A stretch of DNA of 64,000 nucleotides, taken from contig NZ_RYFW01000005.1 in the NCBI RefSeq assembly GCF_004138335.1, forward strand, positions 248,001 to 312,000, in the 5' to 3' direction. Source of the DNA: Peristeroidobacter agariperforans. Lineage in GTDB: Bacteria; Pseudomonadota; Gammaproteobacteria; Steroidobacterales; Steroidobacteraceae. Both the position numbers and the translations under genes were made by a program. The notes under the pieces are model-generated. The model had not been told where the DNA came from, ran no database searches, and saw nothing but the letters and a program-made list of their open reading frames with translations. This document shows positions 35,067 to 56,280 of the stretch, in pieces. Positions within the stretch are counted from its first letter, which is position 1. Each line of letters opens with the position of its first letter.

Positions 35067-35086
35067 GGAGCGGCTCACAGCGCTCC
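35067..35086 (-). terminator. Possible weak terminator at the end of the OmpA/barrel gene
   Basis: A 6-bp stem GGAGCG/CGCTCC with an 8-base loop overlaps the stop codon. On the minus strand the following bases include only short T groups (ATTCTTTG), so termination may be partial. Confidence 0.3.
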
Positions 35087-38000
35087 GACGATGTTGAAGA
35101 ACGCACCCTGGTGCTCGAAGCTCAGATCCGTGAGGTCTTCGGAGAAGTCCGTAAAGTTGTAACCGACGCCGACCTTTACGTGATTGCCGACGTGGCGGTA
35201 CACAGCGACCAGCGCGCCGCTGCGTTGCTCGTTCAGATCCGTCATGTCGAGCATGCGGCCTTCGATCAACCCTTCCCATTGCTCGGCGAATGTGAGATCC
35301 GTTCGGAGGATGTACAGCTGCGCGCAGTTATCGAAGAACTCGCGGGCCTCCCGATCCAGGCTGATCTGACCGAGCCGGTAAGCATACTTGCCGCCAACCG
35401 ACCAGCGATCCGTGAGGTCGTAGGTCAAGTCGAGCGCGCCAATGTGACTCTTCTGAATGAATTGCGCGGCGACGTACTGAGGAGTCACCTGTTCCGTCGT
35501 CGGCACATTGTAGAAGTAGGTGTACTTCGCCAGTGCGTTCAAACGGTCGTGCTCGACGGGCCGGAAGCCATAGCCCACGACGGCTTCGGTGTAGCCGCCG
35601 TCGTAGAACTGTCCGAGCGAGCTCTTGCTGTCGGCATGATTGAACTTGCCGAGCAAACGCCAGTCGGGCGTGAGTTGATACTTGAAGCTGTTTCGATACA
35701 GCCAAGTGGTGCGCTCGGCGAGCGCCTGATCCGGCTGGCGCGTCTTGTCCACACGATACTCGACGGCGCTGGAAAACTGCACTGACTCGAACCCGTAGCC
35801 CATGCGCACACCGCCTGCCTCGCGATCGATTTTTGCACCGGTACGGGAGTCGACCAGCGTGCCGATGTCGGTGTTCGTGCCGAAGTTCCAGCGCTCATTC
35901 GGCGCAAGCGACATGCCGGTGGAATGCGTCAGGCCCGAAGCTGACTCGGTGTCCTGATAACGTTCTTCCACATACATGCTGCTTGAATCGGACAAGCGGC
36001 GCTTCATGCCGGAGATCAGATTGCCGCGACGGCCCTGCAGACCGTTGTCGGTCCGCTCGTTCTCCAGCGCGTAATTCAGATAAAGACTGGTGCGCTCGGA
36101 ATACAGGAAATTCGTGCCGACTTTGCCGCCAGGGCCCAGATCTCCATCGGAGACTTCCGCGTCAGCGCGGAATCGATCTGTGAACCGATACGAGCCGCCC
36201 AGTCCGACGCGGCCATTGGCCTCACGTTCGGCCGAGCGGGATAACGTGTTCTGTGCGAAGCCATACGCGCGCCACGTCGAACGCGAATCGAAGCCGACCT
36301 GCAGTACGCCATCGGTGCGCTCGCCCTGCTGCAGGCTCACCGGAACAATCGCGCCTTCGTACTCGCGTTCATCTTTGCGCACACCAGTGCTCACGTTCCA
36401 GCGTTCGGTGAGCTGGTAGCCGACGTTGAGCTCCTGTGCATTGATGCTGTACCCCTGCTCCTGCGCCTTCTTGTCGGCCTTCGCGCGCACCTGGAGTTGC
36501 TCCGTCACCTGTACCCGCAAGGTGCCGCCGTTGTGTTGCGTATCGGTGGGCGTCGTCAAACCCGGCGCGGAGTAGCCCTCGCCCAGCGTCTGGGTGTACA
36601 GCGTGATGCGCCCAGGAATGGCGTCGACGAAGTCATCGAACCCGACGCTCAAGTCGGCACGATAGGCGCTGGCGCCCGCTTCGTTGAGGATGGTCGCGCC
36701 GTCGCTCACGAATCCGAAACCTCCGTCATCGGAATACATCGAGCTGGAGACCAGGCCTTCGCTCTTCGCGCCTTGCAGCTTCAGCCAGGAGTCCGAGCTC
36801 ATTCGCAATGTCACGTCTGCGCCGTTGAGCGAGCTGTCCGCATCGCCCTCCTCGCTCGCGCTCGCGGTCAAGCCGACCCTCACATGGTCGTTGATCCAGT
36901 AGTGGCCCTGTCCGCCGGTCGCCAGCGCGTCGATATCGCTGAAGCCCGGCGTGTACTCGTAGCGAACCACCAGGTGCGCCTCATCGCCGCTCAGGCCGCC
37001 GCTGCGAATGAGCAGATTGTCGTCGGCGGTCGAACTGAGCGGTTCAGTGAGCAGGACGCGGCCTTGCAGATAATCGATGTCGTAGTCGAGCACGGGCTGC
37101 AGGTTCTTCACGCCCGTCACCAGCCCCGAATCCTTGTCGCGCAGCTCGATGCGGACGCGCTCGGAGCCCACCAGGATGTCCTGATTGCGCAGAAAGTAGA
37201 GTGAGCCGCCAGTGCCGCGGAATTCCTCGCGACTTGCGAGCGTGCCTGGTTCTGCGGCAAAGCCATCCAGCGCCAGACGCTGTTCGCCGAAGCTCGTGGT
37301 CCCTTCGGACTGGAAGTGCAGATTGCCGCCATACAGGCCGCGATCGACATGGGCGAGCTCGTTGCCGAGATAGTTGATTTTAAAATTGCCCCACAGTGCG
37401 TGATTCTGATCCCGATTCACCTTCACATAGAACTTGCCGAGCGTGGGGGCGACGTCTTCGATGATCGAATCGTCACCGAATGTCGGGTAGTGATAGTCAG
37501 GGTCGATGCGGCGGAACAGCGACTCGGGCGTCTTGTCGAGGAAGTTGCTGAAGAGATCCTCGACGGGGCCTTCACGAGTGTCGGCGCTCGCGGTCACTCC
37601 CCAATGCTCGCTGAACTTGCCGTTGATGTAGAACGCCAGGCGACCATCGAAGCTCGAGTCGTAGTCGTACGGTGCATTCTCACCCTGCAGCAGGTCGGCT
37701 GGGCCCGATGTTCGATTCTCCGAGACGGTGAGATCGGCGACGCCGACGTAGAACCAGTCGTTGCGCTCGAACTCCAGATCGCGCAGATACAGCGAGCCGC
37801 TGCCTGTTTCATCCAGCACCGCAACTTCCATGGTGTGCAGACCGGACGGCAGGACTTCCTCGGCAACGAAATTGCCGCCGGCATCGACCGGCACCTGCTT
37901 GCCCGCAACCCACACCGTGTGATGTGCGGGAATGGCACTGCCGCGTACTTTCACAGTGCCGCTGCCCAGACGAATGTTGCTCACCGAGAGTGCGCTCTCC

Positions 38001-40285
38001 CCGTAGCCGGCGAGCAGTGCTTCATCGTGCCTGGGCTCAGCATCGGGATCGGGGTCGCTCACCGCCTCGGTCCCGTGCACGAGCCACAGTGGCTGCGGAC
38101 TGGTCTCGTCAAAGTTGCCTGTCTTGTCGTACGCACGTAGCACGTACTTCAACTCGCGCGAAGGCGCTTCGACGCCATCGGCGGTGGCCTGCCATTCCGC
38201 GAAGCCGTTGGCATCGATCACCGCGATTGCGACGGGCGTCGCTTGCAGCGACTGATCGGCGGCAAAGATGCGTACTTCGGCACGATCGAGGAAAGCCGAA
38301 TAGTTCGCGTACATGCGGAACCGCACGGGCGGGCCGATAAACCGCGGCAGTTGCTCGTCAGGTGCGTCGCTTGCCTCCGGCTCTTCACGGTCGTCCGTGA
38401 TCCAGTCTGTTTCGTCGCTTGGCGCGGACTCTTCAGGCAGCGACTCCACCGATTGCTCGTGGTCTGACTCCAATGCGGCGAAATCCACCGGCGCATCGTG
38501 CAGGACTACCGTCGTCGGCGAGGCGGCCACACTCAAGCGCCGGTTCGATTGCAGATTGTCGAACTGAAACTGGATATCGGCACGATCCATTGCCACGTCG
38601 GTACAGCGCTGAATGTCAGCGGAGCTGCGGTTCTTGTCGTCGACCGGCTGGCCATCGACGGTAATGCGCATCAGGTTCAAGCCGAATGGGTTCTTCGGAG
38701 ACAACTCGCGCGTGAGCTTGGTGATATCCACGCCATCGTAGTCGTCGACGATTGCGGCCTCGTCGTACACCACTTGCACGACGATGTACGAAGTCTCGTC
38801 TTGCGTAAAGCCGACATTCACGACATCGCCTGAGTGCACGAAGCCGCGTCCCTCGTGCTCTACCTGCGATGGGGAAAGCTGCATCTGCTCGCGAATCGCG
38901 TCCATCGCCCGACGGGCGCGTGCGGCGGACAAACCCACGTCATCGCCGTAGACGCTCGCGGTTCGGCGATCCAGCCGCTCGTTCTTCGTGTACCCAACGA
39001 AACGTAGCCGGACATTCGTTCGGTCGGCGATATCGTTCATCGCCCGACGCAGTCGATCGGTGTAGCCGGCGGGGATGATGGCGCGTCCGCCCTCGAGCTG
39101 TAATGGCTCGATGCGCCCCCAGGAGGGCTCGTAGACTTTGGTGACGATCTCCTCACCACCTTCGCTTGGACACAGCTGTGGCTCCTCGGGCATCTCTTGC
39201 AGCGGATCGTCGTGCCAGAACTCGACCTCCACGCGCCGATTCAGCGCGCGGCCCTGGTCGGTGTCATTGGACGCGAGCGGCAAGGTTGCGCCCCGTCCGT
39301 CACTCGACACTCCTGCCGAGGACAGCAGCAGCCGTTCTTGAATGGCAAGCGCCACGCGATGCGCCCGAGCCTTGGACAGAACGACATGCGTACCGTAGAT
39401 GCGCTCATCGCGTCCGACCAGCGGAACGTCGTCGGTGTAGCCGATGAACTTGACCGTCACGTTCTGCTTGCCCTGCAGGTTGTGCAGGCTCTTGCGGATG
39501 TGTTCGACGAAAGCATCCGGCACTTCGGTGGTTTCGTCTTTGAAACGCAGCGGCGGTACGAGATTCCTGATGCGAGCCCGGCGCGAGTGCCCTTCCATGA
39601 AGCGCATTTTGCATACCGTCTCCATGCGGCACACCTTGATGCGCCGGAAGTTCTCCTTGAGGAGCACGTCCTCCCGAGCGGCGCGCTCGCGCATCTCGTC
39701 GTACCACACCTCGACTTCCACCCGACGATTCCGCGCCCGTCCTTCGGCCGTTGCGTTCGTCGCGATCGGTTTGGTATCGCCAGCCCATTCGTACGAGATG
39801 GATTCCGGCCGCAGGTTCAATCGTTCTTGCAGGAACTCCGCCACTTCGCCAGCGCGCTCGCGCGACAGGCCCGCATTGTCGCCGTATTGGCGAGCGAGTG
39901 CGTCCGACAGCGGTTGATCGTCGGCGTGTCCCACGAGGTGCAGTCGCACGTTGCGACGCTCGCGCATACTGTCGAGCACTTTGCGCAGCGATTCGATGTA
40001 TCCGGGCGGAATGTCGGCCACGCCGGACTCGAACCGGATCGGCGGAATCACGTTCTGCAGCTTGACCGTCTCGAGCTCCTCTTTGGTCACTTGCGTCTGA
40101 ACGATCATGTCGCCGGCTTCAGTGTTGATCCGTTGCGCGTCATGCGTCCATTGCGAGATCGCCTCATCGCTCGACAAATGCCGCTCGACAGCGCTGCCGG
40201 GCGACGTTTCGGTGACAGGCTCGGCGCCCGCGGCGATTGCAAGCAATGTTCCGCACAAGAGCGATAGATACTTGTGATGCATCAT
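35075..40285 (-). CDS. Triple OmpA-like domain protein fused to a large outer-membrane beta-barrel
   Basis: 1736 aa. A signal peptide (residues 1-21) is followed by three OmpA C-terminal-like domains at about 80-195, 242-358 and 392-505. The first two end in ARNRRVEVEVWYD and ALNRRVEVEFWHD, as in peptidoglycan-binding domains; the third has lost the NRRVE motif. A linker of Ser/Glu/Asp-rich sequence and Ig-like strands leads to a barrel of roughly 900 residues of alternating amphipathic strands from about residue 835 to the end. It likely spans the outer membrane and holds the cell wall. It starts four bases after the DUF11 gene stops and so shares its riboswitch. Catalytic motifs are absent. 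Confidence 0.85.
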   Translation of the reverse strand: MMHHKYLSLLCGTLLAIAAGAEPVTETSPGSAVERHLSSDEAISQWTHDAQRINTEAGDMIVQTQVTKEELETVKLQNVIPPIRFESGVADIPPGYIESLRKVLDSMRERRNVRLHLVGHADDQPLSDALARQYGDNAGLSRERAGEVAEFLQERLNLRPESISYEWAGDTKPIATNATAEGRARNRRVEVEVWYDEMRERAAREDVLLKENFRRIKVCRMETVCKMRFMEGHSRRARIRNLVPPLRFKDETTEVPDAFVEHIRKSLHNLQGKQNVTVKFIGYTDDVPLVGRDERIYGTHVVLSKARAHRVALAIQERLLLSSAGVSSDGRGATLPLASNDTDQGRALNRRVEVEFWHDDPLQEMPEEPQLCPSEGGEEIVTKVYEPSWGRIEPLQLEGGRAIIPAGYTDRLRRAMNDIADRTNVRLRFVGYTKNERLDRRTASVYGDDVGLSAARARRAMDAIREQMQLSPSQVEHEGRGFVHSGDVVNVGFTQDETSYIVVQVVYDEAAIVDDYDGVDITKLTRELSPKNPFGLNLMRITVDGQPVDDKNRSSADIQRCTDVAMDRADIQFQFDNLQSNRRLSVAASPTTVVLHDAPVDFAALESDHEQSVESLPEESAPSDETDWITDDREEPEASDAPDEQLPRFIGPPVRFRMYANYSAFLDRAEVRIFAADQSLQATPVAIAVIDANGFAEWQATADGVEAPSRELKYVLRAYDKTGNFDETSPQPLWLVHGTEAVSDPDPDAEPRHDEALLAGYGESALSVSNIRLGSGTVKVRGSAIPAHHTVWVAGKQVPVDAGGNFVAEEVLPSGLHTMEVAVLDETGSGSLYLRDLEFERNDWFYVGVADLTVSENRTSGPADLLQGENAPYDYDSSFDGRLAFYINGKFSEHWGVTASADTREGPVEDLFSNFLDKTPESLFRRIDPDYHYPTFGDDSIIEDVAPTLGKFYVKVNRDQNHALWGNFKINYLGNELAHVDRGLYGGNLHFQSEGTTSFGEQRLALDGFAAEPGTLASREEFRGTGGSLYFLRNQDILVGSERVRIELRDKDSGLVTGVKNLQPVLDYDIDYLQGRVLLTEPLSSTADDNLLIRSGGLSGDEAHLVVRYEYTPGFSDIDALATGGQGHYWINDHVRVGLTASASEEGDADSSLNGADVTLRMSSDSWLKLQGAKSEGLVSSSMYSDDGGFGFVSDGATILNEAGASAYRADLSVGFDDFVDAIPGRITLYTQTLGEGYSAPGLTTPTDTQHNGGTLRVQVTEQLQVRAKADKKAQEQGYSINAQELNVGYQLTERWNVSTGVRKDEREYEGAIVPVSLQQGERTDGVLQVGFDSRSTWRAYGFAQNTLSRSAEREANGRVGLGGSYRFTDRFRADAEVSDGDLGPGGKVGTNFLYSERTSLYLNYALENERTDNGLQGRRGNLISGMKRRLSDSSSMYVEERYQDTESASGLTHSTGMSLAPNERWNFGTNTDIGTLVDSRTGAKIDREAGGVRMGYGFESVQFSSAVEYRVDKTRQPDQALAERTTWLYRNSFKYQLTPDWRLLGKFNHADSKSSLGQFYDGGYTEAVVGYGFRPVEHDRLNALAKYTYFYNVPTTEQVTPQYVAAQFIQKSHIGALDLTYDLTDRWSVGGKYAYRLGQISLDREAREFFDNCAQLYILRTDLTFAEQWEGLIEGRMLDMTDLNEQRSGALVAVYRHVGNHVKVGVGYNFTDFSEDLTDLSFEHQGAFFNIVGAL

Positions 40286-40289
40286 CCGT

Positions 40290-43200
40290 TCACCTGCTGG
40301 TTGCTTGCACGGCTGCTTGCTTCGGAGAGCCGCCGCGTCGCCAGAACACTTCAGGCTCGATGGTCAGCCGATAGCAGCAGTTCAATGCCTGCCACGACTG
40401 CATGATTTGCTGTTTCATCGTAGCCATGCGCTGCTCGACCAGGCGCTCATCCTCCACGTCCGCGAGATAGGAGAGGCGCAACACAGCCGGCCCCTTCTGC
40501 AGTTCTTCCATGAGCAGGTTCAAGCGCGGCTTCCATTGCGTACGCATCTCGGTCGTACCCGGTTCGAACACCGCATCCGCGATGTCCAGGCCGATGACGC
40601 GATGGATCGACGCCCCGAAGTTGAACCTGAGTGCTTTACCGCGAGTGGCGCGCTGAATTCGGATCTGATCGCTGGAAGAGCGATAGCCGCTGGGCAAGGT
40701 GCGGTCGTCGAGCTTGAGCACGAAGTTGCTGCCGCGTCCTTCGCGCGGGGTGATCGCACAAGTGATATGGAATCGACCGAAGCTGTCGGTGGTCACAGTG
40801 AGGCCCCGTGCGCTCACCACGCGCACACCGGACAAGCCGCGTTCACCGCTGTCCTGAATGCCGTTGCGGTTCGAGTCATCGAACACCTTGCCGGTCACGT
40901 CCGTGCAATCGAAGGTCGCATCCGGAATGACGCGCACGGTCGCGGACCCTTCGTTCGATATCGCGCTGTTCGTGAACGATTGGATGGCCTGAGCGCGATT
41001 GACGAACTCGCCTTCGCTCACACCGGCGCCGACGGCCAGCAACAGCACGATCGAGTGCCGCGCGTTGCCGTCGACCGAAAGGTCGTTCCACCTGATCTCT
41101 CGGCCCACCACCGCAGGCTCGACAGGCACACCATCGATGCGCGCGGACCCTTCGACGTAGCGGAAGCCTGCCGGGAAGCGATCGACGAGCGTGATGTCGA
41201 ACAGCGGCACCGGCGTCACATTCGTATAGGTGATCGTGTACGGCACGAGCTGACCGCGCGTGACGTTGAGCATCGGCGTGACCTTCGACAGCGACAGCAC
41301 GCCCTGCAGGTCGGGATCGACCGGAATGTGATTGTTGAAGATCTGGGTCGAGCCCGGCACCAGACTGTCATCGAACCGGAAGTGCTTGTGATATCGCGTG
41401 CCGGCGGTGCGTGCACGAACCGACGGCGGCGGCGCAAACTCCGAGGTCTGCACTTCGCAGTGCTGAGCAGTCGCGGCAATCGCGTCGTCGATGCTGCTCG
41501 GGCAAGTCGGCACCGAGAGCGCCGCCGTCGAGGCATCCGATGTGGGTGGGATGATCTGCGAGGGTCCCGCGATGTAGCCCACGGCCGGCGCGGTCACTTC
41601 GATCAGATAGTTTCCGCCACTCGCGCACGTGGGCTCCGAGAAGTTGAGATCGAAGCGGTAATAGCCGTACGCCAAGGTGACCTGATTCTGTTGTGCCGGG
41701 TCGTAGAAACAGGTCTCCGGCAACGGCGATTGGGTTGCCGCGCTGAGCATGGTCACGACCGCGCCGGGCACCGGTGTTCGCGCTATGGTGTTGTACACCA
41801 CGCCATTCGGCTCGATCGGCAGGTTGACGTTCTGAATATTGCTGCCGGGCTGCAGAACGATCTCTGTGACTCGTTGCAGATCGTTGCTGAACTCCGAGTA
41901 CGCGCGACCCAGCTTCGCAGTACTGGCTCCCGCGCCCGGCGCGACGAAGCGCAGCTCGTAGCGGTCACCGTTGATGTAATTCGGCGCGATACCGCTGATT
42001 CGATAAGCACCGCTCGCATCGGTAATGGCTGAGTGCACGAGCCGATCGTTTCGATACAGATCGACGCTCCAGCCTTCGAGCAATCGCTCATTCGCGTCAT
42101 TCGTGCGGTTGAAGTTCGCGTCGTGCCACACCCTGCCGTTGAGTGTGCCGACGCCCACGATCCCGCCGACATCGATGGATACGCTGGCTCGTGCTGTGCG
42201 CGGCGGGTTGTTCCAGGTGACGACGCCGGTATTCGTGATGCGAGTGCCGATCGGCAGATTGGGATTGATCACCGCCCGGAAGCGCAGGACTGCAACCTGA
42301 CCCGGTTGCAGCGGACCGTACGCAGTCGAGTAGTCCGCGGTGATCAGTGAATTCGCAACCGTGATGGCGTTGCTCACACCGTTCAGCGTGGCCGACTGAT
42401 CCACGTACGCCAGATAACCCGGCATCGGAGCGTTGAGGTCGTCCGTGATCACCACGTACTGAGCCGGCACGCTCGCAATGTTGGTTACACGCACCACGTA
42501 CTCGAGCGTGGCGCCTGCCACAGCGGAGCCACCGCCGACCACCGCCACCTGCTTCACGATAGCCAGCTGCTGGCCGACTCCCACCACGACAACAGTCGGT
42601 TCCGGACCGGTCGCGGGATTGCCGTCGCCATCGGTCAACTGATCAGGCAACTCGTTGGTGAGCACGCGTGCCTGGTTGGTGATGAGCGTGCCGGCAGCCA
42701 CCGCGGCATTCACACGCAGATCGAACTGAATGACGGCGGAGTTGCCGGCGGTGAGTGTGCCCTGCCCCACGCCGGGCAACGGTGGAGTCTGATCTGCGGA
42801 GCTGATGTTGATTCCGGCGATCAGCGGTGAAACTCCGCCGTCGGGTTGACCCACGGGGAGGCTGTTCAAGTACAGCGAATCGGCGACATAGGTTGTGTTC
42901 GCCGGCACGCCGTCGCGGAGCATGACGCCGGTCGCTGGCACGTTGCCGTTGTTGTGAACGGTGATCGTATAGCGCAGCACATCGCCGGGATCGACGACAC
43001 CTGGTGAGCCGAGATCGACCTGCAGCGTCGCGCGCTTATCGGCAAAGAGTAGGGGAACGGCGCCAACGACATCGCGCGTCGGGTCATTCGGAATCGATGT
43101 CGTCGGATCGTCGGAAGGATAGTCGGCGATGTTATTGGCGACCGCGCTCACGAACCCCTGGTTCGAGATGATCGTGCCATCCACGACATCGGGGTTGACG

Positions 43201-45890: not shown

Positions 45891-45895
45891 GCGCA

Positions 45896-45939: not shown

Positions 45940-45964
45940 AGTGCCCGCACGCAGCGAGCTGGAT

Positions 45965-48106: not shown

Positions 48107-48634
48107 TCACGGCGCTTCGCCGACCGCGATGTTGGCGAACAGCTCGAGCTTCGTCGTCGTAGCGTCAGGCTGTGTGACTTCAGCAGAACGAATCGCGTCC
48201 ATCGCCTGGATCAAGTAGTCGTACTGCACGTCGCGCTCCAACAACACCGATGCATCGTTCGCCTGCGGGTACTCCTGTTTCAGCGACGTCGCCATCTGGG
48301 TCAGCGTGCCGAAGTCGTACTGATCGTTGAGCTTCGGGACGGTCGCGATCAGCTTCGTGCCGTTGGTGAGCTCGAAGCCCTGATGACGAACGATCACCTC
48401 CAGCCGGAATGCCGGAGGCGTGCCCGCGCTTGCCGAATCCGAGCTGGGCAGATCCAGCTGCAGAATCGTGATGCGGGAGAACACCGCCGTCATCAGCAGG
48501 AACGTGACCAGCACCGTGAAGATGTCGATCATCGGCACCAGCATCAGCTCGACCGGCTTGCGCATCCGAGTCGTGTAACTCGACTGCATCAGCGGGCCGT
48601 CGTAAGCGAACGAACGCGTGTAGTTGGATGGCAT
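48107..48634 (-). CDS. ExbD/TolR-family protein, first copy
   Basis: 175 aa. A longer cytoplasmic start (about 28 residues) precedes VELMLVPMIDIFTVLVTFLL with the proton-relay Asp37. The periplasmic part has FRLEVIVRHQGFELTNG and a C-terminal LLERDVQYDYLIQAMDAIR, typical of ExbD. It lies nine bases after the ExbB gene and 34 bases before the second ExbD gene. Confidence 0.93.
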   Translation of the reverse strand: MPSNYTRSFAYDGPLMQSSYTTRMRKPVELMLVPMIDIFTVLVTFLLMTAVFSRITILQLDLPSSDSASAGTPPAFRLEVIVRHQGFELTNGTKLIATVPKLNDQYDFGTLTQMATSLKQEYPQANDASVLLERDVQYDYLIQAMDAIRSAEVTQPDATTTKLELFANIAVGEAP

Positions 48635-48643
48635 GACGAATCC

Positions 48644-49339
48644 TCAGGCGGCCTTGGAGTGATCCTTCGGCAATTGCGCGAGCTCCAGGCGGTTCTGCAT
48701 CCGAGCAGACTGGCGATCGCCGACCAACGTGAGGAACTTCATCGCCGCCGTTTCCAGGCTGCCGATCAGCTCGCCGGTCTTGGTCTGCAGGAACGCATGG
48801 ATGAACAGCACCGGCACGGCGACCATCAAACCGAACGCCGTACAGTTCATGGCCTCGGAGATGCTGGCTGCGAGCAGGTTTGCCTTCTCCGCCGGGTTGG
48901 CGGTCGCAACCGCCGTGAAGGCGTGAATCAAACCGCTGACCGTGCCGAGCAGGCCGAGCAACGTGGCGAGGTTTGCGAACGTGCCGAGATAGTGGGTGCG
49001 CTTCTCGAGTCTCGGAATCAACTCCATCAGATTCGTGCGCATGGCCTTCTCAACATCGTCCACGCGACGCACGGCGCCCTGACGCGCAAGGCCCACTGCC
49101 AGCAGTTGCGACACTGCTGTTTCATCCTTCGCGGTCGCTTCACGCGCCTTGTCGAAGTCGCCTTCCGTCAGCACCGGTTCCAGGCGATTCCAGGCGGCGC
49201 GGTTCTTGATGGAAAGCCGGCTCAGCGTGACGTAGCGCTCGATCGCGATCGCGGCGGCGGCCGCGGCGACGAACAGGATCGGATACATGAATGCGCCGCC
49301 GCGATTAAAGAAGTTCACGATTGAGTAGAAGATATCCAC
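48644..49339 (-). CDS. ExbB/TolQ/MotA-family proton channel protein
   Basis: The 231-aa polytopic protein has three membrane helices: about residues 15-35, 120-142 and 165-187. The long cytoplasmic loop lies between helices one and two. The conserved Gly/Thr-rich helices LGTFANLATLLGLLGTVSGL and ISEAMNCTAFGLMVAVPV form the proton path with the ExbD Asp. Only one ExbB is present for two ExbD proteins. The genes around it lack tolA, tolB and pal, so this is not the Tol system. Confidence 0.95.
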   Translation of the reverse strand: MDIFYSIVNFFNRGGAFMYPILFVAAAAAAIAIERYVTLSRLSIKNRAAWNRLEPVLTEGDFDKAREATAKDETAVSQLLAVGLARQGAVRRVDDVEKAMRTNLMELIPRLEKRTHYLGTFANLATLLGLLGTVSGLIHAFTAVATANPAEKANLLAASISEAMNCTAFGLMVAVPVLFIHAFLQTKTGELIGSLETAAMKFLTLVGDRQSARMQNRLELAQLPKDHSKAA

Positions 49340-49380: not shown

Positions 49381-49740
49381 TTACTTCGCGTTGGCCCTGA
49401 TCTCGTAGTAGCTCAGCTGCCGCATGAACACTTCTTTGTCCACGGGCTGCCGACCGTCGTCGAGGGTCTTGCCGATGCCCAACGTGTCGCCGAGCTGGGA
49501 GCTCTTCCACGGCACGATCACCAGCGCCTTGGGCGCTTCCTGATTTCCCAGGATCGACATGCCCGAGAGCGCCTTGGGTCCCGCATCCGCTTTTGGTGTG
49601 CTTTGCGCAGGCTCGGGTTGGGTCTGGTTCGAGTTCGCTGCTGCCACCGCGGCGACCGACGCGGCCGCGGTCGGCTGATCCGCGGCGAACGTCGTCGTCG
49701 CTAGCAACGAGCATGCGGTGATGAAGAGTCTGCGCATCAT
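49381..49740 (-). CDS. Small periplasmic protein of the envelope machine, 119 aa
   Basis: A signal peptide (MMRRLFITACSLLATTTFA) is followed by an Ala/Gln/Pro-rich stretch of about 35 residues and a compact tail with VIVPWKSSQLGDTLGIGKTL and a C-terminal RQLSYYEIRANAK. I do not recognise the family. An AGGAG site lies six bases before the first ATG; a second ATG is directly after it. It lies between the TPR lipoprotein and the ExbB gene, nine bases after the former. Confidence 0.75.
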   Translation of the reverse strand: MMRRLFITACSLLATTTFAADQPTAAASVAAVAAANSNQTQPEPAQSTPKADAGPKALSGMSILGNQEAPKALVIVPWKSSQLGDTLGIGKTLDDGRQPVDKEVFMRQLSYYEIRANAK

Positions 49741-49749
49741 GTCTGTCTC

Positions 49750-50412
49750 CTAGCGCTTGGCTCTGACACTCAAATCGGCCAGCCACTTCGCAGTGTCGGC
49801 ATCATCCGGCGCCGCCTGTTGGTAGGCCGTGTAGTGCTGGAGCGCGCAGGCAAGGTCGCCGAGGTACACATCGCAGAGAATCGCGAGGTTGCGTTGTGCG
49901 AAATGGAAGGTTGGAAAGATCTCGAGCGCCTTCTCGTAGCTGGCACGCGCCTCGGTGAACTGCCCCTTGCGTCGATACACCATGCCGAGCTCGTTGTAGG
50001 CGATGGGATGCCGAGGGTTGAGTTGCAACGCCTTCTTCAGGCTTTCCTCGGCTTTCTCGAGATCTCCCGAGCGCGCGTAAGCCATGCCTAGATCGATATG
50101 AACGGCAGTAACATTTGCCGCGCTCTCGACGATCTTGAGCAACGCAGCGATTCCCTGCTCGTACTGCTGCAACTCCAGCATGCGAACAGCGCTTTCGTAC
50201 TCCGCTCGAAGGTCCGCGCTGACTTGCACATCTTCGAGAATCGTGAAGCCGGTCGCGTCCTGTTGAATATCGACGCGGGCCGACGGCGCCACTTTCGCCG
50301 CGGCTTTCTGCACGGGCTTGTCGTGTTTGGCGGACGTCGAGCACGCGGCCACGAACAACGCCGCCAACAACACGGCATGACGCACAGAGCTCATGTCACT
50401 GGCCAATGGCAT
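49750..50412 (-). CDS. TPR lipoprotein, 220 aa
   Basis: The lipoprotein signal has its lipidated Cys at residue 24 (LLAALFVAAC). About four TPR units follow a central linker (for example AVHIDLGMAYARSGDLEKAEE, HPIAYNELGMVYRRKGQF). The start at 50412 has an AGGAG site and overlaps the preceding gene by 17 bases; ATG at 50394 is possible but lacks a good site. It resembles the outer-membrane TPR partners of Agl/Glt-type machines (AglT/GltE-like), by architecture only. Confidence 0.83.
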   Translation of the reverse strand: MPLASDMSSVRHAVLLAALFVAACSTSAKHDKPVQKAAAKVAPSARVDIQQDATGFTILEDVQVSADLRAEYESAVRMLELQQYEQGIAALLKIVESAANVTAVHIDLGMAYARSGDLEKAEESLKKALQLNPRHPIAYNELGMVYRRKGQFTEARASYEKALEIFPTFHFAQRNLAILCDVYLGDLACALQHYTAYQQAAPDDADTAKWLADLSVRAKR

Positions 50413-53400
50413 TGGGAGCTCCTGCGTTGGCTGCGATTGCCGGCTCAGGCGGCGGGGCGGACGGTGTCCGATAGGCATAGCGATCCAGCGATCCCAGAAA
50501 GCCGCTGCTCAGCTCCGCTTTCGCGTAACGCGCAGGCATGAGCTGGGCGAGCTTGGCCAGGCTCTTCTCGATCCACTCGTTGTAGATGCCGGAGCGGATC
50601 AGCTCCAGATTCTTCTCGTGCACGCCAATGGCTTTTTCTTCGAACGGGAACGCATTCTCTTCGAGCGCCAGTTCGTAGTCCTGCAACTGGCCCGCTTGCA
50701 GATCCTTCGGCCGCTCCGATTCCACCAGCGACCGGTTGAAGCCGAAGTACACTTCGGCCATGTAGTAAGTCGCCGCCGCGGTCACGTCACCCACCTGGTA
50801 GTCGACCAGCGCACCCAGCGATTTCATCGCGGCGTCCATGCGCTGTTGCTTCAATTGCAGGCTGCGCTCGAACGGTTGCACGAGCTTTACGGAAGCGAAC
50901 TGCGCATACAGCTGTTCGCCGAGCACGAGCGCCGAGCGCGCCGCCAGGGTTCGCGTCCGATTCGTTCTCTCCACCCCTGCGGCTGCATCGATACTCACGA
51001 TCTGCTGCAGCTGCTCGTGATAGCGCGTCAGGTCCTGCGCGCCTTTGTAGAGTTCCGCGATCTTGGAACGCGTCTCCACGCCAAGGTCGAGCGGCTGCGG
51101 GAACTCGTTGACGTACGCCAGGTAGACCGCGAGCGCACGTTCGTTGTTCTTTCCTTGCTCATGCAGATCGCCGGCGAGCAGCAGCGCCTCGCCGCGCAGC
51201 TCCGGTTTGTCGGCCTCCGCAGCGATGCGCTCGTATTCGCTGGCGGCACGCGCGACCTGCCCGCTCTGGCGGTACACGAACGCGATCTGTTTGGTCGCTT
51301 CGCGATTCAGCTCGTGTTCCGGGTAAGTCCGCCGGAATGCATCGAGAACGTCGGCTGCGGCAGTCCAGTCCTCCAATCGGATCAGTGCAGCGCCCGCATC
51401 GTATTCGGCGGCTGCGCGGATCTTCGAAGTCGGCGCCGCCTGCTTGATGCGCAGGAAGTGATTTGCCGCTGCCCGGTAGTCCTGTCCGCTGTTCGCTGCC
51501 TCGCCCTGCTTGTAGATCGAAGCCGCCAGGTTATCCACGAGCGGCGCACGCTTCTCATCCGTTTCCGGCGTCAGCTCGAGGACTCGCGTATAGGCAAGCT
51601 CAGCGTGCGGATATTCCGCAAGATCGAATGATGAGTGAGCAGCCACCGTCCACGCGGAGCGCAGCACGGTCAGATCGGCGGTTGGATAGCGCTCGATCAG
51701 CTTCTGCGCGGCGCTCAGCGCCGGCTTGAAGTCCTTCAGCTGATAGAGATCGTCGGCCGCCGCACCGAGCACCTTGGGCGCATGCTCGTGTTGTGGGAAC
51801 GTATCGGAGAACTTCAGCGAGCTGGCGATCGTGTCGCGCTTGATCGTGGGTTGCTGACCCTCGTCAGCCCCCTGCAGATGCTCGCGATGCGCGAAGATCG
51901 CGGCATAGCCGGCCGCCGCGGCCTTCTCATGTGTCGGATAGTCGTAGGCAGTCCGCTCGTACTCTCTTGCTGCTTCGCCGAAGTTCTTTTCCTCAAGCAG
52001 CAAGTCGGCCAATTGATAGTTGGTTGGCGGCGAGTCCGCGTCCGTCGGGAAGGAGCTGAGGAACTCCCGGTACCATTGCAGGGCTTCGCGGTAGTTCGCG
52101 GGCTTCTCCTCAGCGAGGTCCGCACGCTGATACTGCGCGTGATAGTGGTTGGCGAGGTCCTTGAGATTGCTCTTCAGATAGCTGACCACCTCGGGGGACT
52201 CATCCATTGCGAAGTGACGCCAGTACTCGGCATGCACCCCATAGGTCTTCGCAAACTCCTTCTTCGAATCCAACACCAGCTTCTGGAAACCGCCTTTGGT
52301 GTAGATCTCGACCACGCGCATGCTGAAATGCGGAGAGGTCCGGTGCAACGGATACAAGCCGATGAATGCTTTGTATGCCGCAGCCGCATCGTGATAGCGC
52401 AGCTTCGTCAGGTAGAACTCGCCGAGGTTGCTGTAGATGCGATCCTCGTAGGTGCGGCTGCCCTTGGCTGCGAAGTACTCGTTGACCACTTCGGGGCCGC
52501 CCAAGTTCGAGAAACTCAGGCTGATGACCCGGAACGTATCGGCCACGCGCCGCTCGTCACCCTCTTCGTGTCGCGCGTTGAAGTCGTAGCCGATCGATAC
52601 TTTGTGATCGAGCAGCGCGATGTATCGGTGCAAGGCTTCATCGTAGAAATCCTGCTTGTAGAGCGTCCAGCCGAGCTTGTAGAGCGCGAGCTCGTAGTAC
52701 TCGGAGCGAGCCCCGAGGGCGATGATCGCCTCGTAGGCGCGCTCTGCGTCGCGGAACTTTCTGCGTGTGAAGAAGTACTCCGCGCGGCGAAATTGAACTT
52801 CGTCGATGTATCTCGACTCGGGATGCGAGTCGATCAGACGCTCCATCGTCTGCATCGCTTCCTCGGTGCGTCCCAGCTCGTCGTACGCGCGGGACTTCTG
52901 ATACAGCACTTTGTCGTTATGCTCGTAAGTCGGATACTCGGCCAGCAACTGATCGTAGAGTGCGATCGCTTCCAGCGGTCCCGAAGCCGCCGGTTGGTTG
53001 GATGTTTCGACGGCGTGCCCGCCCGAAGCGAGCTGCGCCTGGCCGGTCGCGCGACGCTCGAAATCCTGTTGCGATTCGGAGAGGTCGGCAATACCGACGG
53101 CCTTCGGACGCTCGGCGCCCGTCGCAGCGAGCGCCATGCGTTCCGGCGCCGGCTCGGGCGCCTCCAGCTCCACCATTTTTCCATCGCCCAGGATGCCGAA
53201 CTGCTTCTCGACCTTCAGGTCGGCCAGACGCCGCATCGCTTCGGGCGTCATTGCGGTCTTCGGCGTTTCCTCGAGATAACGCCGATAACTTTCCATGGCT
53301 CGGTCGAGGCCCTGATCGACGTGCACATCCGCCGTGTCGGCCGGCACATTGCGCAGCTCCGCCAGGGTCTGTTTGTCAGGGGTGGGCGTGCAGCCCGTAA

Positions 53401-53446
53401 CGAGCACTGGAGAGAGAATGAGGACCAGGCGAAGGGGACGCATCAC
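50396..53446 (-). CDS. Large TPR lipoprotein, 1016 aa
   Basis: The signal MMRPLRLVLILSPVLVTGC ends in a lipobox with the Cys at residue 19. The remainder consists of many TPR-like repeats, with typical blocks such as YEHNDKVLYQKSRAYDELGR, DDLYQLKDFKPALSAAQKLI and ALLLAGDLHEQGKNNERALAV. It is probably attached to the outer membrane and acts as a scaffold in the periplasm. Its ATG overlaps the upstream gene stop by four bases (ATGA). Confidence 0.85.
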   Translation of the reverse strand: MMRPLRLVLILSPVLVTGCTPTPDKQTLAELRNVPADTADVHVDQGLDRAMESYRRYLEETPKTAMTPEAMRRLADLKVEKQFGILGDGKMVELEAPEPAPERMALAATGAERPKAVGIADLSESQQDFERRATGQAQLASGGHAVETSNQPAASGPLEAIALYDQLLAEYPTYEHNDKVLYQKSRAYDELGRTEEAMQTMERLIDSHPESRYIDEVQFRRAEYFFTRRKFRDAERAYEAIIALGARSEYYELALYKLGWTLYKQDFYDEALHRYIALLDHKVSIGYDFNARHEEGDERRVADTFRVISLSFSNLGGPEVVNEYFAAKGSRTYEDRIYSNLGEFYLTKLRYHDAAAAYKAFIGLYPLHRTSPHFSMRVVEIYTKGGFQKLVLDSKKEFAKTYGVHAEYWRHFAMDESPEVVSYLKSNLKDLANHYHAQYQRADLAEEKPANYREALQWYREFLSSFPTDADSPPTNYQLADLLLEEKNFGEAAREYERTAYDYPTHEKAAAAGYAAIFAHREHLQGADEGQQPTIKRDTIASSLKFSDTFPQHEHAPKVLGAAADDLYQLKDFKPALSAAQKLIERYPTADLTVLRSAWTVAAHSSFDLAEYPHAELAYTRVLELTPETDEKRAPLVDNLAASIYKQGEAANSGQDYRAAANHFLRIKQAAPTSKIRAAAEYDAGAALIRLEDWTAAADVLDAFRRTYPEHELNREATKQIAFVYRQSGQVARAASEYERIAAEADKPELRGEALLLAGDLHEQGKNNERALAVYLAYVNEFPQPLDLGVETRSKIAELYKGAQDLTRYHEQLQQIVSIDAAAGVERTNRTRTLAARSALVLGEQLYAQFASVKLVQPFERSLQLKQQRMDAAMKSLGALVDYQVGDVTAAATYYMAEVYFGFNRSLVESERPKDLQAGQLQDYELALEENAFPFEEKAIGVHEKNLELIRSGIYNEWIEKSLAKLAQLMPARYAKAELSSGFLGSLDRYAYRTPSAPPPEPAIAANAGAPNAIGQ

Positions 53447-55338
53447 TGCTGCCCTCCTGCATTGGCCTGCGCGCGAGTTGCACGATCGTAGCTATCGGCG
53501 ACCGCGTAGCGAGCCTGGCTTTCGTAGGATTCCAAGCGATCGCGACGGATGCCGAGCTCATTGATAGCGACCATCTCCAGCACCCGGCCCTGCCGCGCCA
53601 TGACCAGCGTGACCTGCTGAAGCGACTCGCCGACGCGTCGTCGCAAGCGTGTGATCGGGGCGCTGTAACCGACATAGCTGTGCATCGCCGCCTGCCGAGC
53701 ACGAACGAACGCCTGATACTGCGACCGCATCTTTGCGATGTCCGCATTGAGTTGTTCCAGGTGCTCGTAGGCTTCGGTCAGTCGCTCGTGGTATTGCGTG
53801 TTGAGCTGCCAGGTCAGCACGCCCTGCAAGCGCTCGAGGCGGCGTCGCTCGTGCTCAATGCTGGCCTCGGGCATGCTCTCGAGCGCTCGCTCGATCTCGT
53901 TCAGACGCTCGCGAACGATGCGCTCGTCCGCGGTCGCGAGATGGTCGGGTCTGGGCGCCGTCAACATGCCGTGCAGCCGCTTCTCGATGTTGTTGCGTTG
54001 TTCCTGACGCAAGCGGATCTGCGAGTCGAGCTCACGAAACTTCGCATCGACCTCCGGCAACAGCGGCTCGTAGTTCTTACGGCGCCGCTCGATGATGTCT
54101 TCGAAAGCGGCAAAGCTGCGCTGCCAGGTTTCCAGCTTCTTGCGCACGTCCTCCAGGTCCAGATAGTTCTGCAGCGCCGTCTGGAAATCGTGTGAAGCCA
54201 TCAGCGTTGCGAGGTAATAAGTTTCGGGGGATTCCGGCAGGCTGCGCAGACGAATGACCCAATCTTTGTCCTGGCGAATTTCCTCGCGCACCAGGGCCTT
54301 CAGGAACTTCCCTTCCCGAATGCTCCTGATCGAAGCATCGACACGCGCGCCTTCTGCGCTGAAAGTTTCCAGCGCGCGGCCATACATGAGCGCGGCCCGG
54401 CCGTTGACGTTCAATTTTCCGTACGCGTATGGCAGCGCCAGCAATGCTTCTTGTACGGCGCCATCGGTCACGTCGCGCTCGACGAGCGCAGTCCACGGCA
54501 CGATCGCTCTGTCGTACTGCTCGGCAGACATGGCCGCCCATCCCGAACGCAGCAGCGCCTGATTCGAGAACGGCCCTTCGAGTCGCACGCGATCGAAGGA
54601 GAGTTGCGCCCGCTCGAAGCGGTTCGACTCGAACAGCAGGTCGCCGAGAATCAGGTTCGACTTGTCCTTGATCGCTTTGACAGCGTCGTCCTGGGCCTGG
54701 ATCTTGCCGGCCTTGTCCAGCTGTTCGAGCGCCGCGTCCGCGCGCTGATCGTGTAACAACGCGATGCCGAGGTTGTACTCGGCGAAGCCTGTCAGCCCGT
54801 CGGCACCTTGCAGCCGTTGCAGTACGTTGGCAGCATCGGCGGGACGGCCGCTGGCGAGATAAACGTTCGCGCGCAGGAACTCGACTTCATCCCGAATGCT
54901 CTCGGGAATACGACCCTGGATGCGATCGAGCGCGTGCAACGCTTCCTCCAGTTGGTCTTTCTGGAAGTGGATGCGCGCCAGACGGAACGCCGCTTCATTG
55001 CGGACTGCTTCATCGACGGCGCCTTCGAGCACGGCCTTGATGGCGCGGCCGGCCCGATGGTGCATCCGATAGTTGAGCTCGAAATCTCCGACCGAGAACT
55101 GCGCCTCGCCGACGTGAAAGTGCAATGAGTCGAGCTGCGGCTCGTCGAGATCACGGTACTGGCCGAGCTCGGCATCGAGTCGTTCGAGCGCCTCCAGGTA
55201 CTGACCCTGGTGGGCGTAATACAGCGCCTCGCCAAAGTGCAGATCCTGGAGATCGCCGCCGGAACACGGCTGCACGGCGAGCAATGCCGTCAGACCGAGG
55301 CCGAGCGTGCTGTGGACTGCGCGAGTCATGACTCTCAC
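53443..55338 (-). CDS. Exported TPR/coiled-coil protein, 631 aa
   Basis: A signal peptide (about residues 1-27, LGLGLTALLAVQPCSG) is followed by TPR-like repeats to about residue 330 (LHFGEALYYAHQGQYLEALE, AEYNLGIALLHDQRADAALE). Beyond that, the protein becomes a long coiled coil rich in Arg, Glu and Leu (IRLRQEQRNNIEKRLHGML, RLNEIERALESMPEASIEH). It has a Cys in the signal region, but the lipobox is not convincing. It overlaps both neighbours by four bases. Role inferred: periplasmic scaffold of the machine. Confidence 0.82.
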   Translation of the reverse strand: MRVMTRAVHSTLGLGLTALLAVQPCSGGDLQDLHFGEALYYAHQGQYLEALERLDAELGQYRDLDEPQLDSLHFHVGEAQFSVGDFELNYRMHHRAGRAIKAVLEGAVDEAVRNEAAFRLARIHFQKDQLEEALHALDRIQGRIPESIRDEVEFLRANVYLASGRPADAANVLQRLQGADGLTGFAEYNLGIALLHDQRADAALEQLDKAGKIQAQDDAVKAIKDKSNLILGDLLFESNRFERAQLSFDRVRLEGPFSNQALLRSGWAAMSAEQYDRAIVPWTALVERDVTDGAVQEALLALPYAYGKLNVNGRAALMYGRALETFSAEGARVDASIRSIREGKFLKALVREEIRQDKDWVIRLRSLPESPETYYLATLMASHDFQTALQNYLDLEDVRKKLETWQRSFAAFEDIIERRRKNYEPLLPEVDAKFRELDSQIRLRQEQRNNIEKRLHGMLTAPRPDHLATADERIVRERLNEIERALESMPEASIEHERRRLERLQGVLTWQLNTQYHERLTEAYEHLEQLNADIAKMRSQYQAFVRARQAAMHSYVGYSAPITRLRRRVGESLQQVTLVMARQGRVLEMVAINELGIRRDRLESYESQARYAVADSYDRATRAQANAGGQQ

Positions 55339-55853
55339 CAGTCCCCTACTTGGATGGCCTCGCCGCCGGCCACCGTGATGCCGACCAGCTTCGGCTCGAC
55401 ACCTTTGTCGAGCGTGAAGCTGTCGCTGCGCGCATAGTCCCTACCGCCATCGAGCTTGCCCATCACGGACACCTCGAGCTGATGCGCGCCGGTCGGAATG
55501 TTGCCCGTATAGATCCGCTGCACACCGCCCTTCTGCAGCGCCTCGAGCTCTTTGTAGCTGTAGATGTAGTGCGCGACGAGCTTGCCGTCGAGCTGGATCT
55601 GTACCGAATCGAGTCGCATCGTTTCGCCCTTGGCGAGCGCCACGAACAGCGCGACATGTGTGTTCGACGGATACAGCAGCCTTTCCTCGAGACGGCGTAG
55701 CTCGGCGTCGATGCTCAGCACGTCGGATTTGATCTCTTGCACCTGCTCATCGAGGCCCTTCATTTGCGCTCGATAGCTGTCGTCGGCGGCGCCAATCGCG
55801 GCCCAGAGGCAGCAGCAAGCGCTGAACGTCGCGGTCCAGAAAGTCTTTTGCAT
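55335..55853 (-). CDS. Periplasmic accessory protein, 172 aa
   Basis: A signal peptide (about residues 1-23, ending AIGAAD) is followed by a short coiled coil (DEQVQEIKSDVLSIDAELRRL) and a beta-rich domain with LALFVAL-like and VQIQLDGKLVAHYIYS strands. TGNIPTGAHQLEVSVMGKLD resembles a carbohydrate-binding or PEGA-like fold. It is the first confident gene of the operon and overlaps the next gene by four bases. Its own ribosome site is weak. Family not recognised. Confidence 0.78.
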   Translation of the reverse strand: MQKTFWTATFSACCCLWAAIGAADDSYRAQMKGLDEQVQEIKSDVLSIDAELRRLEERLLYPSNTHVALFVALAKGETMRLDSVQIQLDGKLVAHYIYSYKELEALQKGGVQRIYTGNIPTGAHQLEVSVMGKLDGGRDYARSDSFTLDKGVEPKLVGITVAGGEAIQVGDW

Positions 55854-55906
55854 GGGGTTTCGCCTGATAGGGGCGGATTAAGTCAATGAACCAGGACGGT
55901 CCGGCT

Positions 55907-56116
55907 CTAGTGAGACACGCGAGCCCGCATGGTGCTCAGGCACGCGCGAGAGCGTGGCGCGGAAGCGCTCGCTGGGCACGAGGCAGGCGAGACAGCCGCT
56001 TTGGAAAAGCTCAGCGAAGAGAGAATGGTGCAAGTGAACGCAGACAGGGCGCCGCGCATATCGCGCGAGGACGGCAAGGCCGCACCCGCGTTCGCGATCG
56101 ATATCCATCGAGTCAT
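55907..56116 (-). CDS. Candidate small leader ORF after the head riboswitch, 69 aa
   Basis: The ATG at 56116 has a strong GGAGGTGG site six bases upstream and starts 65 bases after the aptamer. The product is Ser/Ala-rich with a mildly hydrophobic centre (ALSAFTCTILSSLSFS) and no family match. Another frame (55878-56129) is also open here, so coding is uncertain. It may be a leader peptide whose translation sets expression of the downstream operon. Confidence 0.35.
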   Translation of the reverse strand: MTRWISIANAGAALPSSRDMRGALSAFTCTILSSLSFSKAAVSPASCPASASAPRSRACLSTMRARVSH

Positions 56117-56180
56117 GAGCCACCTCCATTCAACCTTGGGCACGCACACGCGTGGGTTCGAGGCAGCCCGATTGCATCGG
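56117..56180 (-). promoter_or_regulatory. Candidate expression platform of the head riboswitch
   Basis: After a small CCGAT/ATCGG stem, nested pairings are possible: CCTC with the GAGG of the ribosome site (56160-56163 with 56123-56126), AACC with GGTT, and a CACGC/GCGTG stem inside. The ribosome site of the small ORF could therefore be hidden. No T-run is present, so translational or Rho-linked control is more likely than intrinsic termination. Confidence 0.5.
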
Positions 56181-56280
56181 ACGTCGACTCCGGCGGTCCC
56201 GCTGTCATGGAGCGCGCGAGGCGCTCTTTAGACCGGTGACTTTGCGTCGCCATCTTTCGATGGCTTTGCCCTTGACGTAA
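56181..56280 (-). promoter_or_regulatory. c-di-GMP-I (GEMM-I) riboswitch aptamer at the operon head
   Basis: The minus strand carries the same core as the element at 45965-46060: CAAGGGCAAAGCC, a perfect 6-bp hairpin with a GAAA tetraloop (56249-56264), GACGCAAAG (56240-56248), CACCGGTCTAAAG and a GAGCGC/GCGCTC hairpin. Then ACAGCGGGACCGCCGG follows. ACGTC/GACGT (56274-56278 with 56181-56185) can close the outer helix. The G20-equivalent is again G. The region upstream (56281-56530) is AT-richer and must hold the operon promoter; I can point only to a weak TAGACT -10 candidate. The leader to the first confident gene is 327 bases. Confidence 0.92.

Follow-up and report, generated by a model that had tools for sequence, protein, structure and literature searches.

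Introduction

The closest described relative of the locus reported here is the core complex of the Agl/Glt machinery, defined by Luciano et al. (2011) as the closest homologues of Myxococcus xanthus GltC, GltD, GltE, GltG, AglR, AglQ and AglS (PMC3169522). According to that paper, the core-complex genes lie together in several Gammaproteobacteria, in one betaproteobacterium, in one Fibrobacter and in Geobacter, joined by one extra gene without a Myxococcales counterpart, and in M. xanthus the motor genes sit in a separate cluster and gltC in another cluster (G2). The function of the core outside myxobacteria, where the carriers are non-gliding, was stated as unknown, and the machines for gliding and for the spore coat were viewed as its descendants (PMC3169522). 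Here, a 64,000-nucleotide stretch (G000:C13:248001-312000, referred to as the window) of the 7.65-Mb genome of Peristeroidobacter agariperforans was analyzed. It contains a gene cluster of this kind together with two cyclic di-GMP (c-di-GMP) riboswitches, a giant DUF11 protein and an OmpA/β-barrel protein. Cluster coordinates are given within the window.

The window and the published core share ExbB, two ExbD proteins, an AgmX/PglI-type transducer and three tetratricopeptide repeat (TPR) proteins in one region, and both have extra genes, which in the window lack a match in the two glt clusters searched. The DUF11 giant, the triple-OmpA/barrel protein and the c-di-GMP riboswitches are additions of the window, and none of them appears in the available portion of the published description (PMC3169522). 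The first-pass annotation had presented the locus as a candidate new system. As a kind it is not new, since Gammaproteobacteria and Geobacter were already reported to carry the core in 2011 (PMC3169522). The DUF11/OmpA-barrel pairing and the riboswitch control of the core were not found in the open-access literature searched.

A second parallel is found in Fibrobacter succinogenes, listed as a core carrier (PMC3169522). The genes FSU_2396-2403 (OmpA, TPR, TPR, ExbB, ExbD, ExbD, TonB) are raised on cellulose, on which c-di-GMP is ~2.5-fold higher, and work cited in the same paper placed the OmpA protein in a complex with one of the TPR proteins (PMC6851124). Likened by its neighbouring locus tags, this cluster resembles the window in its OmpA, TPR, ExbB, two ExbD and TonB-type genes and in the rise of c-di-GMP; unlike the window, it has no DUF11 giant or riboswitch in the part of the description at hand (PMC6851124). 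It would represent an independent parallel to the window locus.

Other machines are more distant. The M. xanthus Agl-Glt gliding and Agl-Nfs spore-coat machines have a related proton motor and GltD/GltE/GltG-type parts; they differ in their Group A genes (GltA, B, F, H, I, J, K), given as limited to Myxococcales and Bdellovibrionales (PMC3169522). The Tol-Pal and ExbBD-TonB systems share the motor families MotA/TolQ/ExbB and ExbD/TolR, whereas the window has two unlike ExbD proteins, an AgmX-type transducer and TPR scaffolds, and neither TolB nor Pal in the cluster. Type IX secretion (SprA, PorW/SprE, GldLM) is similar in working, with a proton motor, a TPR lipoprotein, a giant barrel and large surface cargo, but shows no supported sequence or fold link to the window.

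The locus is here read as a c-di-GMP riboswitch-linked form, named form A, of the Agl/Glt core that is dedicated to one DUF11 giant and its outer-membrane anchor, a reading which we hold to be slightly better than an even bet.

Results

The cluster consists of eleven genes and two riboswitches on one strand

From 56280 to 35075 on the minus strand, eleven genes and two c-di-GMP-I (GEMM-I) riboswitches lie near end to end, in the order acc, TPRa, TPRb, TPRc, small protein, ExbB, ExbD1, ExbD2, AgmX-type transducer, DUF11 giant and OmpA-barrel. All proteins named in the first-pass annotation were recovered at their coordinates by Pfam/NCBIfam matches, open reading frames (ORFs) and lipoboxes, and both riboswitches exceeded the Rfam cut-offs. 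In the list below, form B denotes a paralogous core at ~40% identity to form A.

56189..56280, minus strand: c-di-GMP-I riboswitch aptamer 1, 5′ of the core cassette (RF01051, 78.4 bits; gathering cut-off 35)
55907..56116, minus strand: putative 69-codon leader ORF between riboswitch 1 and acc, with GGAGG ahead of the ATG
55335..55853, minus strand: acc (P0001, 172 amino acids [aa]), accessory exported protein, the first cassette gene in relatives too
53443..55338, minus strand: TPRa (P0002, 631 aa), TPR protein by Pfam, in a conserved place
50396..53446, minus strand: TPRb (P0003, 1016 aa), GltD-like TPR lipoprotein (lipobox; TPRb family profile)
49750..50412, minus strand: TPRc (P0004), GltE-like TPR lipoprotein (Pfam TPR, lipobox), start at 50412 or 50394
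49381..49740, minus strand: small periplasmic protein (P0015, 119 aa), matched by a protein between TPRc and ExbB in loci of both forms
48644..49339, minus strand: ExbB/AglR-like proton channel subunit (P0006; PF01618, 92.9 bits)
48107..48634, minus strand: ExbD1 (P0007; PF02472, 58.7 bits), transmembrane Asp present in the window copy
47584..48072, minus strand: ExbD2 (P0008; PF02472, 65.0 bits)
46098..47597, minus strand: AgmX/PglI-type force transducer, GltG-like (P0009; NF033768, 59.3 bits; cut-off 40)
45964..46060, minus strand: c-di-GMP-I riboswitch aptamer 2, 5′ of the DUF11 gene (RF03167, 66.8 bits; gathering cut-off 59)
45895..45941, minus strand: hairpin pairing the likely Shine-Dalgarno GAGGG of the DUF11 gene, by folding; possible translational expression platform
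40290..45890, minus strand: giant DUF11/SdrD-B repeat protein (P0010, ATG at 45890; DUF11 110.6 bits, SdrD_B 53.5 bits)
35075..40285, minus strand: triple-OmpA/outer-membrane β-barrel protein (P0011, 1736 aa; OmpA 86.4 bits; TIGR03350 in three stretches)

The four-base overlaps reported earlier for the TPR part were confirmed at acc/TPRa and TPRa/TPRb; ExbD2 and AgmX overlap by 14 bases, and the gap from the DUF11 gene to the OmpA gene is 4 bases. As listed, the TPRc ORF shares 83 bases with TPRb, and the later starts are likelier from their start context, the one at 50394 lying 1 nucleotide (nt) beyond the TPRb stop. Riboswitch 1 is separated from acc by 335 nt containing the 69-codon ORF, and only 37 nt lie between the AgmX stop and riboswitch 2. 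Two transcription units, one per riboswitch, are conceivable; promoter and terminator scans performed no better than chance. An ORF of similar size to the leader ORF, with identical start context, was seen in Povalibacter (L001).

TPR domains were found by Pfam in TPRa, TPRb and TPRc, and lipoboxes in TPRb and TPRc, while signal peptides were judged by eye. For acc, no Pfam or NCBIfam family was found at E 0.1, and for the small periplasmic protein, no Pfam family at E 0.01 and no NCBIfam family at 1e-10. Either of them may correspond to the extra gene reported for the published core.

Motor and scaffold are related to the Agl/Glt core complex

Two glt clusters, L163 (genome G357) and L164 (genome G355), were searched with profiles of the window families. 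By NCBIfam, the L163 cluster contains GltG, at 756.6 bits (cut-off 650), as well as GltE, at 247.3 bits (cut-off 225). Just upstream of GltE, the TPRb profile matched a large TPR ORF with E 2.8e-45 over positions 137-971 of 1018; this ORF was named GltD by its position in the published order, no GltD model being among the NCBIfam matches. The transducer profile matched the GltG of L163 (E 1.3e-10) and, in L164, a GltG relative that scores below the cut-off (481 bits; E 3.5e-17). The TPRc profile matched the GltE frame (E 5.6e-8) and the window TPRc scored 57.6 bits on the GltE model against the cut-off of 225, a match that is ambiguous because TPR repeats match broadly. TPRa gave only a 14.3-bit TPR match across both clusters, a weak test given that M. 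xanthus gltC lies in cluster G2; its size and the assignment of the other TPR proteins make it the presumed GltC. No match in either glt stretch was obtained with the profiles of acc, the small protein, ExbB and both ExbD proteins.

By family, the adjacent genes encode an AglR-type channel and two ExbD/TolR-type subunits, and kinship to AglRQS rather than to other ExbBD proteins rests here on domains, not on a tree. In Geobacter and in genomes outside Deltaproteobacteria, the core genes likewise lie together. Judged from these profile and family matches, several motor and scaffold genes of the window are homologous, and not merely analogous, to the Agl/Glt core complex. The term "analogous machine" used earlier thus understated the relationship, while a proton-driven ExbBD-type machine related to Agl/Glt/Nfs and accompanied by c-di-GMP riboswitches and a DUF11 giant was correctly recognized.

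This homology to the M. xanthus gliding machine, together with the giant surface protein, could also point to a gliding or surface-motility machine, and Lysobacter, one of the carriers, has been described as moving on surfaces. Such a role is nevertheless very improbable: in the window the GltJ model gave 17 bits only (AglZ and MglA were not searched for), and the core alone, which occurs in bacteria without documented gliding, has been argued not to drive motility (PMC3169522).

Form A is linked to the DUF11 and OmpA-barrel pair across phyla

A query with ExbB yielded 80 loci, namely the best 80 out of 338 relatives in the stretches retained. An identically ordered full core cassette was found in Povalibacter, Steroidobacter, two Lysobacter, Woeseiaceae L007, Geomonas, Geotalea, Citrifermentans and a Nitrospirota bin. 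The DUF11-OmpA pair mostly accompanies form A in the taxonomic order to which the window belongs, in Lysobacter, in Woeseiaceae and in Geobacteraceae, lying on one side of the core or the other. The gene order is thus not unique to this genome, and the recurrence of the gene set in other genera and phyla indicates that the cluster is more than chance. Cultured carriers include Povalibacter uvarum, Lysobacter niastensis and Geomonas and Citrifermentans species. In a 38-row tree, the 20 form A TPRb rows grouped as a single clade with support 100/99, and this clade spans Pseudomonadota, Thermodesulfobacteriota and Nitrospirota, which suggests that form A moved between phyla.

The co-occurrence of form A and the barrel was counted in two samples. 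In a 60-genome sample including the own genome, 44 genomes had some TPRb match; the nine with form A TPRb (at least 56% identity) were the same nine with a triple-OmpA/barrel at 58% or more, and in all nine the two shared one contig (Fisher's exact P = 4.5e-10 with the own genome left out and relatedness ignored). In a class-wide draw of 274 genomes, 60 had a TPRb match at E 1e-100, and those with form A, taken as above 840 bits, were the same eight whose barrel match includes the OmpA N-terminal part (P = 1.4e-15, or 1.9e-12 minus two genomes already counted, relatedness again ignored). Core and barrel lay on one contig in G042, G097 and G215 of the seven class form A genomes besides the own; weaker barrel matches, with no form A, were found in 14 further class genomes. 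A DUF11 match was present in 14 of the 16 form A genomes searched. In five Geobacteraceae (G060, G061, G062, G063, G071), the DUF11-OmpA pair is intact and located upstream of acc rather than downstream of the core, indicating that the linkage survived rearrangement.

The own genome also carries two annotated form B copies (L096, L097), which contain acc, TPRa to TPRc, the small protein, ExbB and the two ExbD proteins and have a transducer of 307 aa, compared with 456-520 aa in form A. Transducer length does not split the forms cleanly, because other form B frames reach 524-530 aa (L025, L028) besides those of 327-341 aa (L020, L021, L024, L027). The L024 cassette, from a Pedobacter metagenome-assembled genome, groups tightly with L027 and L030, one of them labelled Moraxellaceae, so that this 17.6-kb "Pedobacter" contig may be mis-binned.

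c-di-GMP-I riboswitches accompany form A and part of form B

Riboswitches were counted by the Rfam cut-offs, except in G039, where element coordinates of a genome-wide listing were used; a regular-expression scan was less complete than Rfam. In both aptamers of the window, the ligand-sensing position, which we take to be position 20 of Vc2, is occupied by G, presumably the mark of c-di-GMP rather than cyclic GMP-AMP; c-di-GMP is therefore the expected ligand.

Among form A Gammaproteobacteria, all 12 genomes scanned had one or more elements within the cluster or ahead of it. In 11 of them it lies between the transducer and the DUF11 gene (window, L001, L004, L005, L007/L115, L098, L100, L102, L103, L105, G039), the twelfth (L003) having an element before acc only. 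Elements before acc were present in four (window, L001, L003 and L098, the last with two in tandem), and some other contigs end there. Two to four elements were found upstream of DUF11 in each of the five Geobacteraceae genomes scanned there, one before acc in Nitrospirota L011 and one after AgmX in Desulfuromonadaceae L008. In one set of 14 loci, seven had an element (L001, L003, L004, L005, L007, L008, L011), and none was present in the stretches covered of L010, L012, L013, L016, L018, L019 and L020. For L010, L012, L013 and L019, elements were found in the same genomes upstream of the DUF11 gene; the counts for L016 and L018 cover stretches without that region.

For form B, an element on the gene strand was detected at 20 of 42 loci (12/20, 6/20 and 2/2 across three sets; 1.4-20 kb scanned). 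The background of 285 elements in 238 Mb (60 genomes) would give ~0.2 of 42 within 8 kb on the right strand. Some form B stretches were short and at contig ends (L133, L150, L151, L158), and the element of L156 lies 9.3 kb from the TPRb gene.

Downstream of aptamer 2, the fold of 46065-45850 contains the Shine-Dalgarno hairpin (z −4.1 for the whole stretch), which recurs with changed bases in L001 and L004. This points to translational control, and riboswitch 2 may thus act on translation of the DUF11 gene. The stretch after aptamer 1 gave no comparable folding signal (z −0.3).

Elsewhere in the own genome, three c-di-GMP-I riboswitches precede two Ig/fn3-repeat proteins (L161:1-4204, C9:1217800-). 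A further pair of this kind is found in L159, and these elements belong to a nine-element set in this genome.

Exceptions to the linkage and a static adhesin as a possible alternative

Several observations weigh against a core that is riboswitch-controlled and dedicated to the DUF11-OmpA pair. With regard to the riboswitches, 22 of the 42 form B stretches had none, no element was found by Rfam on the Nitrosomonadales form A contig L116 (one marked there by the looser pattern scan was not confirmed), and none of the seven Nevskiaceae loci had one, so riboswitch control is not universal. With regard to the pair, the form B copies L096 and L097, both with a riboswitch, have no DUF11-OmpA pair adjoining, so that a core without the pair is possible; no DUF11 match at E 1e-15 was obtained in G065 and G066, the Nitrospirota form A genomes; and core and barrel were on different contigs in four of the seven class form A genomes besides the own. 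Conversely, G011 has a divergent DUF11-OmpA-barrel pair (43-52%) with a form B core only, and G291 a 60% barrel cut by the contig end with form B only. With regard to kinship, the TPRb profile found nothing in the second glt cluster, L164. Finally, the Fibrobacter authors read the ExbBD/TonB genes as cellodextrin uptake (PMC6851124).

Cores without the pair (L096/L097), Nitrospirota form A without DUF11 and the pair without form A in G011 would be expected if the parts were co-regulated but mechanically separate, with DUF11 and the OmpA-barrel as a static adhesin and an anchor between outer membrane and peptidoglycan, and the core moving or assembling something else, e.g. polysaccharide, in the manner of Nfs and the spore coat. 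A fused DUF11-OmpA-barrel protein that is not next to a core (L106, described below) and the action of Agl-Nfs on a carbohydrate polymer (PMC3858216) fit this alternative as well. It is disfavoured by the occurrence of form A and the triple-OmpA/barrel in the same genomes, by the linkage retained after the pair moved to the other side of the core and by the absence of a polysaccharide gene between the parts in the window. We regard it as unlikely, though a serious competitor.

Sequence features of the motor and the transducer

The transducer has a single hydrophobic segment (residues 202-230), so that ~200 N-terminal residues would stay cytoplasmic and the C-terminal domain is predicted to be periplasmic; the cytoplasmic part may be the coiled coil named in the first-pass annotation. 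The transducer reached the cut-off of the AgmX/PglI domain model, but not that of the GltG equivalog (NF033760, 41 bits vs 650, C-terminal part alone). At least 93% of 27 rows retain ExbB T133 and T167 and ExbD2 D22, assumed here to be the proton-path residues. In ExbD1, the transmembrane Asp is replaced by Asn in the form A relatives L007, L098, L100, L102, L103 and L105 and in L020, L024 and L027. Because of this replacement in six form A relatives and three others, the ExbD pair appears unequal and ExbD2 is the likelier proton carrier. The Tol-Pal equivalogs were not reached (TolQ 67.9 vs 221 bits; TolR 38.4 and 36 vs 127.3). The genome holds eleven MotA/ExbB-family matches, the window ExbB among them.

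The putative surface pair comprises a repeat giant and a predicted large barrel

The DUF11 giant has a signal peptide, judged by eye, and DUF11 and SdrD_B repeats. Its C-terminal region is 52-78% identical across 18 aligned homologues, and the open frames in relatives that are not cut by a contig end range from ~1,730 to 2,920 aa. In-frame stops in Geobacteraceae and Desulfuromonadaceae homologues were natural stop codons in the six inspected. A degenerate OmpA domain at the DUF11 C-terminus was considered and not supported (profile comparison probability 1.1%, E 0.05).

Of the three OmpA-like domains in P0011, the first and second contain the Asp and Arg assumed here to bind peptidoglycan, and the third lacks the Asp. 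Residues 745-1736 (992 residues) were modelled by AlphaFold, at middling confidence, as a β-barrel of some 30 or more strands (predicted local distance difference test score 64.7, with 262 residues below 50). Structural comparison with the PDB placed generic membrane β-barrels on top, with root-mean-square deviations (rmsd) of 8-18, and the barrel profile matched no PDB chain at E below 0.4.

Export of DUF11 through this barrel by a Type IX-like secretion machine was considered in view of the proton motor with such a large barrel, the conserved C-terminal region of the DUF11 homologues and a weak PorW/SprE match of a TPR lipoprotein. The latter, at 46.3 bits, is far under the cut-off of 250, the structural matches of the barrel are generic, its profile has no PDB match at E below 0.4, and no sequence link to the Type IX translocon or motor was found, which makes this explanation improbable. 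A SprA-like look of the barrel was not borne out, the structural comparison giving generic barrels only, although absence from such a list is no disproof.

Energized uptake, with the barrel as a TonB-dependent receptor, is what the Fibrobacter interpretation of FSU_2400-2403 would imply for the ExbB/ExbD/TonB-type components, and TonB-dependent receptors are among the best structural rows for the barrel. Porins, AlgE and VDAC also appear among those rows, at the same rmsd of 8-18; by Pfam at E 0.1, neither a receptor plug nor a TonB-dependent-receptor family was found in the OmpA-barrel; and the equivalog or domain cut-offs were unreached for ExbB (40 vs 206.2), ExbD (25.3 and 24.7 vs 123.45) and TonB_C (16.6 vs 24.6). 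Uptake is accordingly ranked as the least probable of the explanations considered.

That the two surface proteins act together is supported by P0016 (L106:9002-14881, minus strand; 1,959 aa), in which DUF11 and OmpA, both above the Pfam cut-offs, and a related barrel form one chain. P0016 had matches in 17 of 60 relatives at E 1e-60, and no core cassette was present in the 20 kb of L106 covered. Right after the form B cassettes of L054 (12763-14217), L055 (12731-14203) and L057 (12768-14303), an OmpA-domain ORF of 485-512 aa is encoded on the plus strand. In these Nevskia-type loci, the ORF may represent a simpler OmpA partner. A barrel related to P0011 was also seen inside an open frame of 11,777 aa (G190:C2:460777-463986).

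Genes flanking the cluster

A 58-aa ORF with a lipobox (35033-34857, minus strand) starts 41 nt past the OmpA-barrel stop; no counterpart was found 3′ of the OmpA gene in seven relatives by lipobox pattern search. A 366-aa right-handed β-helix protein (PF13229; 33041-34141, plus strand) is convergent with the cluster. Just upstream and on the same strand as the cluster, 56531-59095 (minus strand) encodes a PP2C-phosphatase/protein-kinase fusion and a formate/nitrite transporter.

Discussion

In the reading preferred here, c-di-GMP acting on two riboswitches would set the synthesis of the motor and scaffold set and of the DUF11 and OmpA-barrel pair. ExbB with ExbD1 and ExbD2 would form a proton motor, and proton flow would drive the GltG-like transducer that reaches into the periplasm. 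The GltC/D/E-like TPR scaffolds would span the periplasm, with the TPR lipoproteins forming the outer-membrane side, and through these lipoproteins the periplasmic domain of the transducer may push or pull on the OmpA-barrel, which would hold both peptidoglycan and outer membrane. The DUF11 giant would probably be the cargo or the fibre. The force may deploy, assemble or reposition it at the surface, in attachment or matrix building rather than gliding. Adhesion, motility or fibre assembly, as suggested in the first-pass annotation, would be the possible range of functions.

A bolder proposal, which is possible but doubtful, is that of a horizontally spread, c-di-GMP-gated proton machine that exports or deploys a DUF11 fibre through or along a large peptidoglycan-anchored barrel, this being the ancestral job from which the myxobacterial gliding and spore-coat machines were adapted.

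What is new is that the form A core mostly travels with the DUF11 and OmpA-barrel pair, and that c-di-GMP-I riboswitches accompany form A and part of form B. An orphan core thereby gains a candidate signal, c-di-GMP, via riboswitches before two separate core branches, and a candidate surface partner, the DUF11 giant with the OmpA-barrel. Since cultured carriers exist, the question of what the core moves is open to gene-removal experiments. The findings suggest a job for a motor of unknown role outside myxobacteria and, if the proposed reading is true, a proton-driven class of surface-protein deployment under c-di-GMP control would be added.

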